A stretch of 50,112 bases of DNA from an uncultured Clostridia bacterium (GTDB lineage Bacteria > Bacillota > Clostridia > Lachnospirales > Bianqueaceae), in the NCBI GenBank assembly GCA_944383515.1, contig CALWPV010000096.1, forward strand, positions 1-50,112. The letters are read 5' to 3'. The position numbers and the translations under genes are program-made. The notes below the pieces were generated by a model. It made no database searches, was not told where the DNA came from, and saw nothing but the letters and a program-made list of their open reading frames with translations. Positions 2,581-50,112 of the stretch are shown here, one piece after another (the first letter of the stretch is position 1; each line of letters starts with the position of its first letter).

Positions 2581-2621
2581 TATTCCTTTCTTATGAGTTC
2601 ATAGGAAAGGGATATTTTTTT
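2581..2621 (+). terminator. Terminator after the nucleotidyltransferase gene
   Basis: A long stem: TATTCCTTTCTTATGA pairs with TCATAGGAAAGGGATA (two G-T wobbles) and is followed by seven Ts. Confidence 0.85.
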
Positions 2622-2687
2622 ATGGGGACGTTATGCGATTAAGCGTTACCTTAAAATGTTGGGAAAAATTCTTTTGTGACAGGGATA

Positions 2688-2940
2688 AGACCTTGGACGG
2701 CATGCCTTTATATTATTGAGCCATAGGGACAGTGAGTAGTTAGTTCCGTCCCTGTGGCGCAAAAATTTGTCGAAAAAGGGGTAGCGCCCTGCGCAGTTAT
2801 CTCTATATTTCAAAAACAATATCGAGCAACAGGGATAGTGATCGGCAAGCTCTGTCCCTATGTTGCAAAAAATACTGTCTAAACAGGGATAGTATACCGA
2901 AAAGCACTTGAAAGCAACACAGCTCAATAGAGATAATCCC
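2688..2940. repeat. Cluster of GGGATA/GGGACA inverted elements
   Basis: This accounts for most of the 531-base gap 2576-3106. Cores appear as AGGGATA (2691, 2831, 2885), AGGGACA (2725), GTCCCTG (about 2749) and TGTCCCTA (2853). The clearest unit runs from about 2826 to 2866: GCAACA-GGGATAG, a 13-base middle, then CTGTCCCTATGTTGC, forming an imperfect hairpin. The 3' flank of inverted cores is often TTGCAAAAA or GCGCAAAAA. I see no credible gene here. Confidence 0.6.
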
Positions 2941-10013: not shown

Positions 10014-11475
10014 AGAGAAAACCTTACATACTTCGGCCGGCGACGAGGAAATGGAGATTGATCTGCTGGAGCTGGCGCAGGACTTTGGGCGCATGCTGCG
10101 GCAATTTTGGTGGCTGTTTGGGCTGATTGTGCTGGTTGTCGCGGGCGCGCTGGGCATCTATACATATGGGAGCTATACCCCGCTGTACCAGTGCCATGCG
10201 ACCTTTACGGTAGCGACCGATACCTCAGACAACGGGCTGTACGAATATTATTATTCGCAAAACACAGCGGATCAGATGTCGAAAACGTTTCCCTACATAT
10301 TGAGCAGCAGCTATTTTAACAGCGTATTGCTGGAAACCCTGGGAAAAGAGCAGCTAAACGGAACCATTACGGCGGAAACAGTGAGCGACTCCAACATGGT
10401 CACCATGACGGTCACCAGTCCCAGTCCCGACGACGCGCAGACCATTTTAGAGACAGCCATTGAGATTTATCCGGAAACCGCGCGCTTTGTGCTGGGCACG
10501 GTACAATTTCATATGATTAACAGCCCAGAGCGGCCGGAGGCGCCTTATAATGAGCCGCTGCTGTGGCGCACCCTGGCCCTGGGGCTCGCGATCGGCGCGG
10601 TAGCCGGCGTAGCCGTGCTCGGCGTCATGGCATTTTTCCGGCGCACGGCGAAAACGCCCGAAGCCATGCGCGCCATTACCAACGTGCCCTGCCTGGCCGT
10701 CATTCCCAAAGTTAAATTTAAAGCACGCAAAAATAAAACCGCTAAGCGCATTTCGGTATTGGAAAAACGCAGCGCCTACGGCTATCGCGAAAGCATCCGG
10801 CTGTTGCAGATCCGCTTAGAGCGCGCACTGCGCGAAAAGGGCGGCAAAATGATTCTGATTACGGGTACCGCTCCCGGCGAAGGTAAGTCTACGGTAGCGA
10901 TTAACCTGGCGGAAATGCTGGCTATGCAGCATAAAGACGTACTGCTGATCGACGCGGATTTGCGCAAACAGGAGGACGCCAAGGTATTGGGCTGCGGCGA
11001 CGGTCTGGGATTGCAAGACGTGTTTGAGAAGCAGGGGGCGCAGCGGATTCGTAAATTAGAAAAGGAAAACCTGTGGTTTATCGGCAGCACACGGCCGGTT
11101 AAGCAGCCGGCCAAAGTGCTTGCGCATCCTGGGTTTGACGCGTTTATGCAAGCGGCCAAACGCAACCGGGAGTATATTATTGTGGATTCGCCGCCGTGCG
11201 GCACATTTCAAGACGCGGCCATTTTGCAGGAATACGCCGATGCGGTGGTGTACGTGGTGAAACAAGACGAAGTACCCATGCAGCAGATTCAGGAGGGCCT
11301 TACGCTGTTTCGGCGAGACAAAGGGCGGTATATTGGTTATGTGTTTAATGCGTATACGCAGGGGCTGGGCGACTATGGCTATGGCCGTTACGGCTACGGC
11401 TATGGCTATGGTTACGGCTATGGGTATGGAAGCGCGCACAGCCGGAGCGGACGCAGCGGGCAGGCAGAGCCGTGA
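10006..11475 (+). CDS. Wzz-domain/BY-tyrosine-kinase fusion, second copy with Tyr-Gly tail
   Basis: A 489-residue paralogue of the preceding protein. I chose ATG 10006 because it follows AAGGAGGAG at 9986-9995. It has membrane segments near residues 30-50 and 195-215 and a kinase domain with Walker A PGEGKSTVA (about 287), Walker A' LLIDADLRKQ (about 311) and Walker B YIIVDSPP (about 389). The C-terminal tail encoded at 11371-11430 has nine tyrosines, nearly all alternating with glycine, an exaggerated form of the autophosphorylated cluster of BY-kinases. The phosphatase start overlaps its stop. Confidence 0.88.
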   Translation: MDEEKTLHTSAGDEEMEIDLLELAQDFGRMLRQFWWLFGLIVLVVAGALGIYTYGSYTPLYQCHATFTVATDTSDNGLYEYYYSQNTADQMSKTFPYILSSSYFNSVLLETLGKEQLNGTITAETVSDSNMVTMTVTSPSPDDAQTILETAIEIYPETARFVLGTVQFHMINSPERPEAPYNEPLLWRTLALGLAIGAVAGVAVLGVMAFFRRTAKTPEAMRAITNVPCLAVIPKVKFKARKNKTAKRISVLEKRSAYGYRESIRLLQIRLERALREKGGKMILITGTAPGEGKSTVAINLAEMLAMQHKDVLLIDADLRKQEDAKVLGCGDGLGLQDVFEKQGAQRIRKLEKENLWFIGSTRPVKQPAKVLAHPGFDAFMQAAKRNREYIIVDSPPCGTFQDAAILQEYADAVVYVVKQDEVPMQQIQEGLTLFRRDKGRYIGYVFNAYTQGLGDYGYGRYGYGYGYGYGYGYGSAHSRSGRSGQAEP

Positions 11476-32884: not shown

Positions 32885-32967
32885 CCGTCCCGGCGGATGA
32901 GATCCGTCCCTGGCGGACGAGGGCCGTCTTGCGGGAAAGGTCCGTCCCTGTGTGGTAATTGTCCCTG
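32885..32967. repeat. Degenerate ~19-base tandem repeat with CCGTCCC cores
   Basis: CCGTCC-like cores begin at 32885, 32904, 32924, 32942 and about 32960, spaced 18-20 bases apart, with partly conserved GGCGGA.GAG between the first ones. It starts just after the vanT stop and leads into the palindrome at 32984. I see no reading frame of interest. Confidence 0.6.
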
Positions 32968-32983
32968 CTTGGGCGAAAACTTT

Positions 32984-33055
32984 TGCGCAGAATAGGGATA
33001 GCCGGTGCTAGCCTTATCCCTATTCTGCGCATTTATTATCGCAATATAGGGACAG
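32984..33055. repeat. Perfect 17-bp palindromic GGGATA element plus a half element
   Basis: TGCGCAGAATAGGGATA (32984-33000), a 14-base loop, then its exact complement TATCCCTATTCTGCGCA (33015-33031). A further single core, GCAATATAGGGACAG, ends at 33055. It lies between the converging vanT and ileS genes and has no T-run, so it is not a standard terminator. It is the cleanest example of the dispersed element family in the window. Confidence 0.8.
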
Positions 33056-33202
33056 TGGAACGCTTCCAACGCTCCTGTGTAGGAAGATAAATGGAAAAAT
33101 AACGAGGGAGAGCAATAAGAATTCTTGAATTAAGTACAAACGACTTTCAAACAAGAACACCTTGCTTTCTCCCTTTTACTATCATGTCAAATATCTCGCT
33201 GC

Positions 33203-33289
33203 GCGGGGATAATGTATGGCCCTTGCCCCTCCCTTGCGTTATTTTTCTTGCCGTATGGGGATAACGTACACAGTTCTTATCCCTATGCG
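33203..33289. repeat. GGGATAA inverted elements near the ileS 3' end
   Basis: GGGGATAA at 33206, then a hairpin CGTATGGGGATAA (33252-33264) against TTATCCCTATGCG (33277-33289), pairing at 11 of 13 positions. The stretch 33056-33202 between this and the previous element shows nothing I can name. Confidence 0.55.
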
Positions 33290-36572: not shown

Positions 36573-36826
36573 AAAAAACCTGCAGGTTCAATAACCTGCA
36601 GGGACGAATGCTATATGGTATCCGTGGTACCACCCTGATTACTTCTCTCAGCTTCCATCAAAGCCTTGGCCGATAACGGGGCTAGCCGTACGCTCTTACT
36701 GCCCGGAACGTCCGGTTTTCTGAGCAATGCTCCGGAGGGATCCGACCTTGCGCTTCACACGGCCTTACACCAACCGGCCGCTCTCTGTAGTGAGGGGTAC
36801 AAGGAGCTATCTCCATCAACACAATT
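36573..36826 (-). ncRNA. T-box leader (isoleucine) of ileS
   Basis: On the minus strand the leader carries the T-box sequence GGGTGGTACCACGG (36635-36622). A terminator stem then pairs CCTGCAGGTT with AACCTGCAGG (36602-36579) and runs into six Ts (36578-36573). A long 5' stem I region precedes it. An ATC codon at 36741-36739, in CGGATCCC, is well placed as the specifier for isoleucine. Uncharged tRNA-Ile would disrupt the terminator and allow ileS transcription. The 5' boundary is approximate. Confidence 0.9.
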
Positions 36827-36832
36827 ATAGCC

Positions 36833-47769: not shown

Positions 47770-47809
47770 GTTGGGAACGTAAGGCTGTGCGGACGGGACG
47801 AACTATCCC

Positions 47810-48393
47810 TGCGCAGCGGGAAATATTTAGAAGAAGAGAGACAGGGCCGTTCGTTATCCCCGCGTAGCGGGATAATTTACGCCAAGGGGAGGCGGAGGGG
47901 ACGTTATCCCTCTTTCTTTAGCTAGTTATTCTTGCGTACGGGGATAATTGGTTTGGGCTGTGTCCCTGTATTGCAAATAAAAAATGCAGCGCAGGGATAA
48001 TTTGTCCCTGCCCAGAAGAATATTTGGCAGCACAGCAATAGAATGCCTCCCTGTTCGGCTATATATCTGACTCGGCAGGGACAAAAAGAGCCTCGGTTAT
48101 CCCTGGCTGGCAAGAACCTTTTTTGAACAAAGAGGGTTAGCGTCATTTTCTGGTTCCTGCGCTGCTTCCTATCCCTTTGCGCAGGGATAGGAAGCGGAAA
48201 TAAGATCCCGTACTATCCCTGCCCTGCTAATTATTTGGTGCAAACAGGGACAGTTCTGCCCGCTAACTATCCCTAAATAGCGCCAAACTTAGTGCTAAAT
48301 AGGGATACTCCGTGTCATAGGGACGGACCTCTCCCGGTATTTCTTCCTTTCCCCTCCCTGCCGCAGGTCTGTCCCGGTGGCATTTTATCCCTG
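47810..48393. repeat. Dense mosaic of GGGATA/GGGACA inverted elements
   Basis: About 18 cores occur in both orientations: TATCCCT or TTATCCC at 47814, 47854, 47904, 48097, 48170, 48214, 48268 and 48385; GGGATAA or AGGGATA at 47869, 47941, 47993, 48183 and 48301; TGTCCCTG at 47961 and 48003; AGGGACA at 48077 and 48246. The best hairpins are GCTTCCTATCCCT/AGGGATAGGAAGC (48164-48195, perfect) and TATCCCTAAATAGC against GCTAAATAGGGATA (48268-48307, 12 of 14). Spacing is irregular, so it is not a CRISPR. It fills the convergent gap before the nuclease gene and overlaps its stop codon. Confidence 0.75.
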
Positions 48394-49272
48394 ACCGTCC
48401 GGTTTCTGGTTCGGCACCGGCTGGCCGGCGGCCTCGTCCTTATCCCCGTTCGGCTTCACCTTTTGAAACGGCTTAGAGCGAATAAATAGCCGTACACTGT
48501 CCAGATTCACCGTGCCATTGTCGTCGTACGTTACAATCAGCCGTTCATTCACATATAGCCCCGCCAGCTCATAGCTGCGCAGCTTAGCGCGAAAGTTGGC
48601 GGCATACCTGGGATCCTGCATCATGCCCGCGTGCTCCCAGTATACCTGCGTTCCGTCCGGAAGATACAGCGTGAAATCCGGCTGCACACGCCCGTCTGGT
48701 AAATCCAGCGGCTTCTCATAGTCATAGCGCAGGTGGTGGCGGTTTAGCTCATTTGCGATCATCATTTCAGACTTAGACCGTACCGGCTCCAAGCGGTCGG
48801 TAAAGTGGTTGCGGGAATCGGGATAGCGTCCCTTCTGCGCGGCGGCCATAGCGGCCTGGCGCTGGGCCTCCTTTTGCTCCGCCGCCTGCCGGCGCTGTTC
48901 GTACTCCGCCACCACCGCGTCCGGGTCTAAGCGGTAGTGGCGCAAGGAGCATCGGATCGCGTGCAGGTTAAAGCGCAAATTTCGCAGCCGATCTTTCAAA
49001 GCTTTAAAGGTTTCAATAGTCTGTCGTGCCTGTGCCAGCGCCTCGCCCTTTACAAACTTATGAATATGGACGCCATTTTCATAATACTGCCAGTAGGCAT
49101 AGCAGCGCCCGGGTCCTTTCATAACAATGCAGCCGGGCGAATGGGTCAGCTGCGCCTCCAGGGTGCGGATGCTCTCGAGGCAAGCGAGCAGAGACTCACA
49201 GGTCGAGCGTACGGCCTCGGCGGTTTCGTCTTCTAAGTGCCAGGGCTTTCTTACATACTTTTTTCGAGCCAT
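48385..49272 (-). CDS. PD-(D/E)XK-like nuclease family protein
   Basis: 295 residues on the minus strand. The start at 49272 follows GGAGG. Residues 1-115 are helical and basic, residues 120-147 are an Arg/Gln-rich coiled-coil-like stretch, and residues 165-250 carry a restriction-nuclease-like core: SKSE (E169), QPDFTLYLPDG (D199), YWEHAG (E213, with H where K is usual) and a late basic helix. The tail is polar. The target is unknown. The final codons, reading CAG GGA TAA, form one copy of the GGGATAA repeat core, and the region upstream of the gene holds four hairpins, so the gene is enclosed by palindromic DNA. Confidence 0.6.
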   Translation of the reverse strand: MARKKYVRKPWHLEDETAEAVRSTCESLLACLESIRTLEAQLTHSPGCIVMKGPGRCYAYWQYYENGVHIHKFVKGEALAQARQTIETFKALKDRLRNLRFNLHAIRCSLRHYRLDPDAVVAEYEQRRQAAEQKEAQRQAAMAAAQKGRYPDSRNHFTDRLEPVRSKSEMMIANELNRHHLRYDYEKPLDLPDGRVQPDFTLYLPDGTQVYWEHAGMMQDPRYAANFRAKLRSYELAGLYVNERLIVTYDDNGTVNLDSVRLFIRSKPFQKVKPNGDKDEAAGQPVPNQKPDGQG

Positions 49273-49288
49273 AAAAACCTCCATTCCG

Positions 49289-49408
49289 AAGCGCTTTAGC
49301 GCGGGTTCGCGGCGCAAATTTCAAATTTGCGCCTGCGAAGAAAGCTATTTGTGGCGCTTCGGCACAAATAGCCGTGTGAACAATCAGCTATTCGAGCTGA
49401 TTGTTCAC
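49289..49408. repeat. Row of four hairpins upstream of the nuclease gene
   Basis: In order: GCGC-TTTA-GCGC (about 49291-49302); TTCGC-GGCGCAAATTT facing AAATTTGCGCC-TGCGAA (49307-49339) with a 1-base bulge; GCTATTTGTG/CACAAATAGC (49344-49372); and a perfect 14-bp stem GTGAACAATCAGCT/AGCTGATTGTTCAC with a 5-base loop (49376-49408). They lie just before the nuclease start codon. No T-run follows. They could be a structured RNA, a mobile palindromic element or a regulatory leader. The stretch 49409-49553 is AT-rich with no clear feature. Confidence 0.7.
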
Positions 49409-49553
49409 ATTACTTTCCTTATACTTATAACTATCGTACAAAAAAGGCGTTTTTTCGCGGTTTACAAAAAGTTCATAAAATTTTGGACAAAGTAACCTGT
49501 CGGCGTACAAACAATTTGGGTAAAATACAAAAAAGAGTGACGCTTTTAGGGGG

Positions 49554-50112
49554 TGCGGACAAAAGTTGGACTCTTGCACATTGTGACTAACGATGAAATA
49601 CACAAAAGAACAAATAGCTACCGCATTACAGCTGCTGGGTTCTACTGGTTCCCCAAGAAGGGTTATAGACATTCTTGGTTATCCTTCCAACCCTATGCTA
49701 TATCACGGGAGAAAGAAATATCCAGAGCTTTATACCTCTCCACAAATGAATCATTGGAAGCAGGCTTCTCCTGAATTCAAAAAAGAAATAATTCAGCGTT
49801 GTTTTATGGATGGAGAGAATGTAAAATCAGTATCAGAAGAAATAGGATATACGCCATCATCCATATATGGGTGGTATCGACGTTATCGCAAGAAAGGGAT
49901 ATTTTCTTCCATGAAAAAATCTGATAAACATATAGTAACGCCTAATACTGCAAATGCCGAAAATATCGATGATCTCAAAGCACAGATGCGGGAGATGCAA
50001 ATGGAAATTGATATTCTTAAGGAAACCATCAATGTCTTAAAAAAAGACCCCGGCGTCGATCAGACAGCTCTCAAGAACCGAGAGAAGGCAGTGATAATCG
50101 ACGCCCTGAAAA
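49554..50112 (+). mobile_element. IS3-family insertion sequence, 5' part
   Basis: The left end is probably TGCGGACAAAAGTTGGACT, starting at 49554, about 40 bases before a transposase reading frame that remains open at the window edge. The right end lies outside the window, so completeness and target duplication cannot be judged. Confidence 0.75.
49593..50112 (+). CDS. IS3-family transposase, N-terminal part (runs off the window)
   Basis: ATG 49593 opens at least 173 codons with no stop before the window ends. An N-terminal helix-turn-helix (about residues 60-95, with VKSVSEEIGYTPSSIYGWY) is followed by a leucine-zipper-like helix (about 130-150, DLKAQMREMQMEIDILKETI) and KDPGVDQTALKNREKAVI, a linker typical of clostridial IS3 OrfA. 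The DDE catalytic domain would follow outside the window, either fused or by frameshift. Its GC content is low compared with the chromosomal genes here. Confidence 0.85.
   Translation, partial: MKYTKEQIATALQLLGSTGSPRRVIDILGYPSNPMLYHGRKKYPELYTSPQMNHWKQASPEFKKEIIQRCFMDGENVKSVSEEIGYTPSSIYGWYRRYRKKGIFSSMKKSDKHIVTPNTANAENIDDLKAQMREMQMEIDILKETINVLKKDPGVDQTALKNREKAVIIDALK

Follow-up and report, generated by a model that had tools for sequence, protein, structure and literature searches.

In systems of repetitive extragenic palindromes (REP) and their associated tyrosine transposases (RAYT), the enzyme gene is flanked by its own short inverted repeats, which are also dispersed between other genes (PMC3116915). 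The problem these systems pose is how short repeats are kept up by an enzyme whose gene lies at another place in the genome. By analogy of function, they are the closest parallel to the locus analyzed here, a nuclease gene with an adjoining array of short inverted cores on a 50,112-nucleotide (nt) stretch from an uncultured Clostridia bacterium of the family Bianqueaceae (CALWPV010000096.1, positions 1 to 50,112, hereafter the window). An initial annotation, made from the letters alone, had proposed a RAYT-like link between this nuclease and the repeats. We lean toward the reading that the two form a two-part selfish system, composed of a homing-endonuclease-like, sequence-specific nuclease and an array of its own recognition sites, for which we infer the steps of binding, cleavage and copying.

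The open reading frame (ORF) of the PD-(D/E)XK-fold nuclease lies on the minus strand at 48385..49272 and encodes 295 amino acids (aa) from the ATG at 49272 or 310 aa from the TTG at 49317. Directly on its 3' side, 18 GGGATA/GGGACA cores in both orientations occupy 47804..48386, in agreement with the cluster of about 18 cores annotated initially, and the TAA stop codon of the ORF was confirmed to lie inside a core (TTATCCCTG, 48385..48393). Within the 3,225 bp of this locus (L001), 21 GGGAYA cores were counted versus 2.44 expected, a number reached by none of 200 dinucleotide shuffles. The same-orientation spacings of the window array (72, 53, 84, 106, 63, 55, 51, 50, 56, 42, 95, 72, 44, 54, 102, 16, and 55 bp) lean weakly toward multiples of about 10.5 bp (R = 0.47, P = 0.07); the array is an old, decayed copy, and phasing is very strong in intact arrays elsewhere. 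Two clusters without a nuclease were found in trans in the window, with six GGGAYA cores at 2609..2891 and seven at 32960..33283. In 20 other contigs of the source genome (273 kb), GGGAYA formed no cluster and was not in excess (31 versus 41 for the reversed motif). The 621-nt array stretch folded better than shuffles (z = -5.9), an effect that inverted cores alone would give, and the Rfam search returned no match at the window array.

The nuclease gene occurs in many gut bacteria, and arrays of this kind were found beside it in relatives. The nuclease was present in all 18 family members sampled, and the relatives' genes were adjoined by cores other than GGGAYA, again in both orientations, including AATGGGA, TGATGAT, TGTATAC, CACGGAC, TACGGAT, and others. 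The initial expectation that the nuclease always accompanies the GGGAYA family therefore did not hold in its literal form, since relatives' nucleases carry other cores or no detectable array; GGGAYA is not tied to nucleases in general, as the core is particular to each nuclease, so pairing has to be tested per cognate core. A search with the pattern AGGGATAN{6,30}TATCCCT over 96 genomes was uninformative, as chance palindromes occurred everywhere. In 1-kb flanks, a core at 8 or more copies was present in 16/50 downstream and 4/48 upstream flanks versus 0/390 control windows. A second sample of 80 loci from named genomes, mostly Lachnospiraceae but also Treponema, Fibrobacter, and Saccharofermentans, yielded a core at 7 or more copies in 17/59 upstream and 5/77 downstream flanks versus 0/233 controls, the arrays of Lachnospiraceae being located mostly upstream of the nuclease gene. 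When intergenic gaps were compared, arrays, defined as at least six identical cores, were found in 49 of 150 gaps touching a nuclease gene and in none of 126 distant gaps at least 2 kb away (P about 1e-15). Arrays were detected by exact 7-mers, and contig ends and decay hide some of them; some nucleases may be without any array. No relative of the nuclease was found in viral contigs, phage records gave three matches, and plasmids gave partial matches only, most of which fell in genes with an AAA ATPase or helicase annotation.

The geometry of the arrays is that of sites placed at whole helical turns. Neighboring cores were in opposite orientation in 418 of 522 cases, and core-to-core distances were mostly 20 to 55 bp. 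Same-orientation spacings fell into peaks at 52 to 54 (116 spacings), 62 to 64 (55), 72 to 75 (74), 83 to 88 (65), 93 to 95 (18), and 103 to 108 bp (24), with nearly empty valleys between them. They are thus quantised near 53, 63, 74, 85, and 95 bp. When one modal period was taken per nuclease family, with families less than 45% identical to each other, the best period over the 23 non-redundant families was 10.6 bp (R = 0.87, P at the simulation floor of 5e-5). One core was found in arrays of both 75 and 85 bp period, and single arrays mixed 53 with 63 bp or 43 with 53 bp. Among 54 distinct 39-bp TACGGAT pairs, the length was fixed and covariation beyond the 9-bp core was limited to two inner positions. 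The fixed pair length, the scarce inner covariation, and the helical-turn spacing point to protein dimers on duplex DNA rather than to single-strand hairpins, so that the hairpin cleavage considered in the initial annotation is not favored. Its rejection of a clustered regularly interspaced short palindromic repeats (CRISPR) array stood as far as it relied on alternating orientations; the spacing, also invoked, does vary in length, but same-orientation spacings lie near whole helical turns, weakly so in the window array. Between orthologous arrays of five genomes, substitutions were seen at 4 of 985 core positions and at 394 of 3,132 aligned positions in the remainder; no more than two mismatches to the core were allowed in the core columns, which introduces a small bias.

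Each core was associated with its own nuclease. Over 49 arrays, core similarity tracked nuclease identity (Mantel r = 0.35, P = 2e-4); the same core was shared by 33 to 100%, depending on the identity bin, of nuclease pairs at least 50% identical and by 0 to 4%, a chance level, below that value, and paralogues within one genome each had their own core. The TACGGTT core with a period of about 53 bp was common to four genomes whose nucleases are 58 to 67% identical, with unrelated inter-core DNA. In the cases tested, arrays in trans follow the cognate nuclease. The five genomes with an orthologue of the L091 nuclease (94 to 100% identical) contained 28, 20, 3, 8, and 12 TACGGAT pairs, and the other 56 of the 61 genomes of that genus, many of them with paralogues at most 48% identical, contained 0 or 1. 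In the family-wide sample of 150 genera used for TACGGTT, more than one pair was found in two genomes (19 and 11), both belonging to the four genomes whose nuclease is at least 60% identical to that of L124, versus 0 or 1 pair in 146 others. The trans arrays in both tests lay mostly away from any nuclease, and a search for a dedicated partner gene beside them returned ordinary and varied neighbors (NUDIX, thioesterase, and GHKL). In G095, one of the trans arrays duplicates the array at the nuclease locus together with the first ~27 bp of the gene.

In the source genome (G000), the nuclease and its array constitute a mobile, multi-copy unit. Alignment of five copies and a scan of the right end delimited the whole unit, the nuclease with its 3' array between two sharp borders, to 47854..49482 on the minus strand. 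The array side of the copies starts exactly at TTATCCCCGCGCAGCGGGATAATT (window 47854), the border being TTATCCCCGCGTAGCGGGATAATT at 47854..47877, and beyond it the sequence is different in every copy; the core at 47804 falls outside this border. The gene-side border, ATAACTATCGTACAAAAAA...ACAAAAAGTTCATAAAA at 49427..49482 on the minus strand, is common to at least eight places, in which the unit stops at ACAAAAAGTTCATAAAA (to about 49482) and unique, unrelated flanks follow. By eye, an intrinsic terminator of the neighboring gene was read just past it in five places. Array and nuclease recur together on contigs C8, C130, C125, and C74, and several copies have lost internal parts of the nuclease and retained the array. 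Of the 24 matches to the nuclease in the source genome, most are broken or sit at the end of a contig, which is what a repeat that interrupts assembly would produce. Because copies end many contigs (C8, C18, C23, C30, C55, C58, C92, C94, C95, C103, C108, and C117), the family is probably a main reason for the breaks in the assembly of this genome. A second subfamily in the source genome has a tail with internal duplications (L048 and L051), and in the relative G004 a different subfamily shows one sharp 5' border with unrelated host flanks. The RAYT-like link proposed initially thus holds for linkage, core pairing, and trans arrays and fails on copy number, the nuclease being not single-copy but part of a moving multi-copy unit.

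The PD-(D/E)XK-like assignment of the initial annotation fits, given the invariant motifs S-K-x-E169, P-D199-F, and E213-H214 and the fold matches to I-Bth0305I, TnsA, and Vsr. Structures were predicted for the window protein (predicted local distance difference test [pLDDT] 79.7) and for the L124 nuclease (pLDDT 93.3). The C-terminal half of the models is a restriction-like fold with I-Bth0305I as the best match (Z 9.1 over 91/97 residues), followed by Bax1 (Z 8.1), TnsA (Z 8.0), and Vsr (Z 6.6), several PD-(D/E)XK enzymes scoring close by; the R2 endonuclease was matched in Foldseek (E = 0.03). The N-terminal half consists of a small beta sheet between two long helices with no supported identity, and an AP2 or integrase-arm identity considered for the sheet had no supporting family match. 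No family of Pfam, NCBIfam, or PHROG fits the nuclease; in Pfam, the window protein and 71 relatives gave no significant family, no Y1 match, and no HUH domain, and no Nop, RuvC, or HNH family was matched. The PADLOC candidate PDC-S68 matches the window protein by its C-terminal domain only (E = 1e-28). Separately, in G083:C25 and G187:C1 the nuclease domain was located inside ~1,200-codon open frames, like those of PDC-S68 candidates. In the comparison among the five genomes with orthologous arrays, the ratio of nonsynonymous to synonymous substitutions (dN/dS) of the nuclease was 0.02 to 0.36, and purifying selection acts on this one nuclease.

Upstream of the nuclease, within the window copy, a separate ~150-bp multi-hairpin repeat at 49275-49423 looks like a miniature element, and pieces matching it were found in L044, L046, L049, L050, L053, and L054. 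Just past the gene-side border, 49593-50112 holds the beginning of a gene for an IS3-like transposase, covering its helix-turn-helix part. In L045 (G000:C53), two ~300-bp same-orientation copies, 80% identical, adjoin a third nuclease subfamily at ~10807-11465. Elsewhere in the window, Rfam detected an ordinary T-box leader at 36597-36828 on the minus strand.

In the two-part selfish system that we prefer, the array would supply sites made of 7- to 9-bp cores that alternate in inverted orientation and form pairs of constant length, recurring at whole helical turns. Nuclease dimers would bind the inverted core pairs in duplex DNA, and neighboring dimers would stack along one face of the helix. 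A cut or nick within the array, repaired from another array or copy, could homogenise and expand the arrays and seed them in trans between genes, and such repair-driven copying might occasionally move the whole unit. Whether these pairs represent an undescribed selfish class, in which a PD-(D/E)XK nuclease recognises its own inverted cores in duplex DNA, amplifies phased arrays in cis and trans, and shifts its specificity with divergence, with several enzyme-array pairs per genome and a wide distribution in gut Firmicutes and some Treponema and Fibrobacter, we judge to be evenly balanced. A description of a nuclease with a site array was not found in the open-access literature, subscription literature being outside the search, and novelty is provisional.

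Several results weigh against this system. About two-thirds of the nuclease-adjacent gaps had no detected array, among them those beside each of the six nucleases in the sister genome G001. The five TACGGAT genomes are close relatives and some of their arrays are orthologous, so they do not count as independent events; two genomes with a nuclease 61 to 69% identical to that of L124 were without the L124 core, and core choice was not attributable to either the N-terminal (r = 0.33) or the C-terminal (r = 0.32) domain alone. The fold Z values of 8 to 9 exceed background only modestly. A target-site duplication and a clean empty site were looked for and neither was found; in the empty-site test in G102, no orthologous flank was found. 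Having dozens of sites in the chromosome should also make the nuclease harmful to the host unless it is nicking, repressed, or partner-dependent.

The strongest rival is a nucleoprotein system with a host-serving or gene-regulating role, in which the nuclease acts chiefly by binding DNA at specific sites (as an autoregulator, a chromosome organiser, or a part of a defence system), the arrays are its platform or decoy, and phasing reflects looping and not mobility. Helical phasing and core constraint would suit any cooperative DNA-binding protein, the upstream arrays of Lachnospiraceae could affect transcription, and the resemblance of the nuclease domain to the C-terminal part of PDC-S68 would be in line with defence. 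Such a role does not readily account for a multi-copy unit with sharp borders and unrelated flanks, for paralogues of one genome each with its own core, for the many copies that are broken or internally deleted, or for the ordinary and varied neighbors of trans arrays, and we regard it as unlikely. Passive hitchhiking, with the arrays as replication-slippage satellites next to a mobile gene whose nuclease does not recognise them, appears more doubtful still: the unit does move as a block and some arrays (L048 and L051, with internal duplications) show plain tandem growth, but slippage would not be expected to quantise spacings by helical turns in families unrelated to one another, to keep cores conserved while the DNA between them diverges, or to restrict trans arrays to genomes with the cognate nuclease.

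A guide-RNA array, transcribed and processed for an RNA-guided nuclease as in CRISPR or tandem interspaced guide RNA (TIGR)-Tas systems, is very improbable. The array adjoins a nuclease gene and has partly variable inner sequences, and TIGR arrays likewise occur upstream or downstream of the gene they belong to (PMC12045711); a single core in alternating inverted orientation, inter-core DNA that is often conserved, periods of 43 to 95 bp in helical steps, and the absence of a Nop, RuvC, or HNH match all speak against it. We give hardly any credence to a true REP/RAYT system in which a Y1 (HUH) transposase mobilises hairpins and the nuclease is a bystander, even though inverted pairs, enzyme-adjacent clusters, and intergenic trans copies are all REPIN-like (PMC3116915). 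The linked enzyme has no HUH domain, and the enzyme type excludes RAYT itself; G045 has arrays on both sides of the nuclease and no Y1 transposase match, Y1 counts do not follow array counts, and the pair geometry suits duplex DNA.

If the selfish reading is true, it would represent a second, independent solution to the REP/RAYT problem, reached by a restriction-like nuclease on duplex DNA. With natural sites spaced at whole turns, the way in which oligomers of a nuclease read DNA could be tested cleanly, and a specificity code could be sought in the dozens of nuclease-core pairs. The nuclease-array system may account for some of the repeats between genes, and some of the assembly breaks, in the genomes of gut bacteria.

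Compared with known systems, the nuclease resembles REP/RAYT in being flanked by its own cognate inverted repeats, different for each enzyme, and in the dispersal of these repeats in trans between genes. It differs in its fold, which is unrelated to the Y1 HUH transposase (PF01797), in being a multi-copy mobile unit in G000 and G004 instead of a single-copy enzyme that is not self-mobile, in the helical phasing of its sites with hairpin covariation absent over most of the pair, and in its variable cores, with no general GTAG/CGTC tag in 52 arrays. CRISPR and TIGR-Tas share with it a nuclease gene adjoining a repeat array. Unlike CRISPR, with its direct repeats, unrelated spacers, and cas genes, the arrays alternate in orientation, often have conserved inter-core DNA, and gave no Cas match; unlike TIGR-Tas, with its Nop-domain Tas protein, two different 8- to 12-nt repeats, and 9-nt spacers, they are helically quantised, have one core in two orientations, and come without a Nop match. 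The C-terminal nuclease domain is shared with PDC-S68, a protein of about 1,200 aa, whereas the window protein of about 300 aa stands alone with an array. As in TnsA of Tn7 and the R2 retrotransposon endonuclease, a restriction-like endonuclease fold occurs in a mobile element, but here the nuclease is the only clear gene of the unit, and no transposase or reverse transcriptase partner was seen. In the predicted models, I-Bth0305I has the closest solved catalytic-domain fold, and by analogy with it and other EDxHD/Vsr-like homing endonucleases the protein may be a small sequence-specific nuclease that spreads its own DNA, unlike them in having no intron or intein and in facing many short array sites and not one long target.
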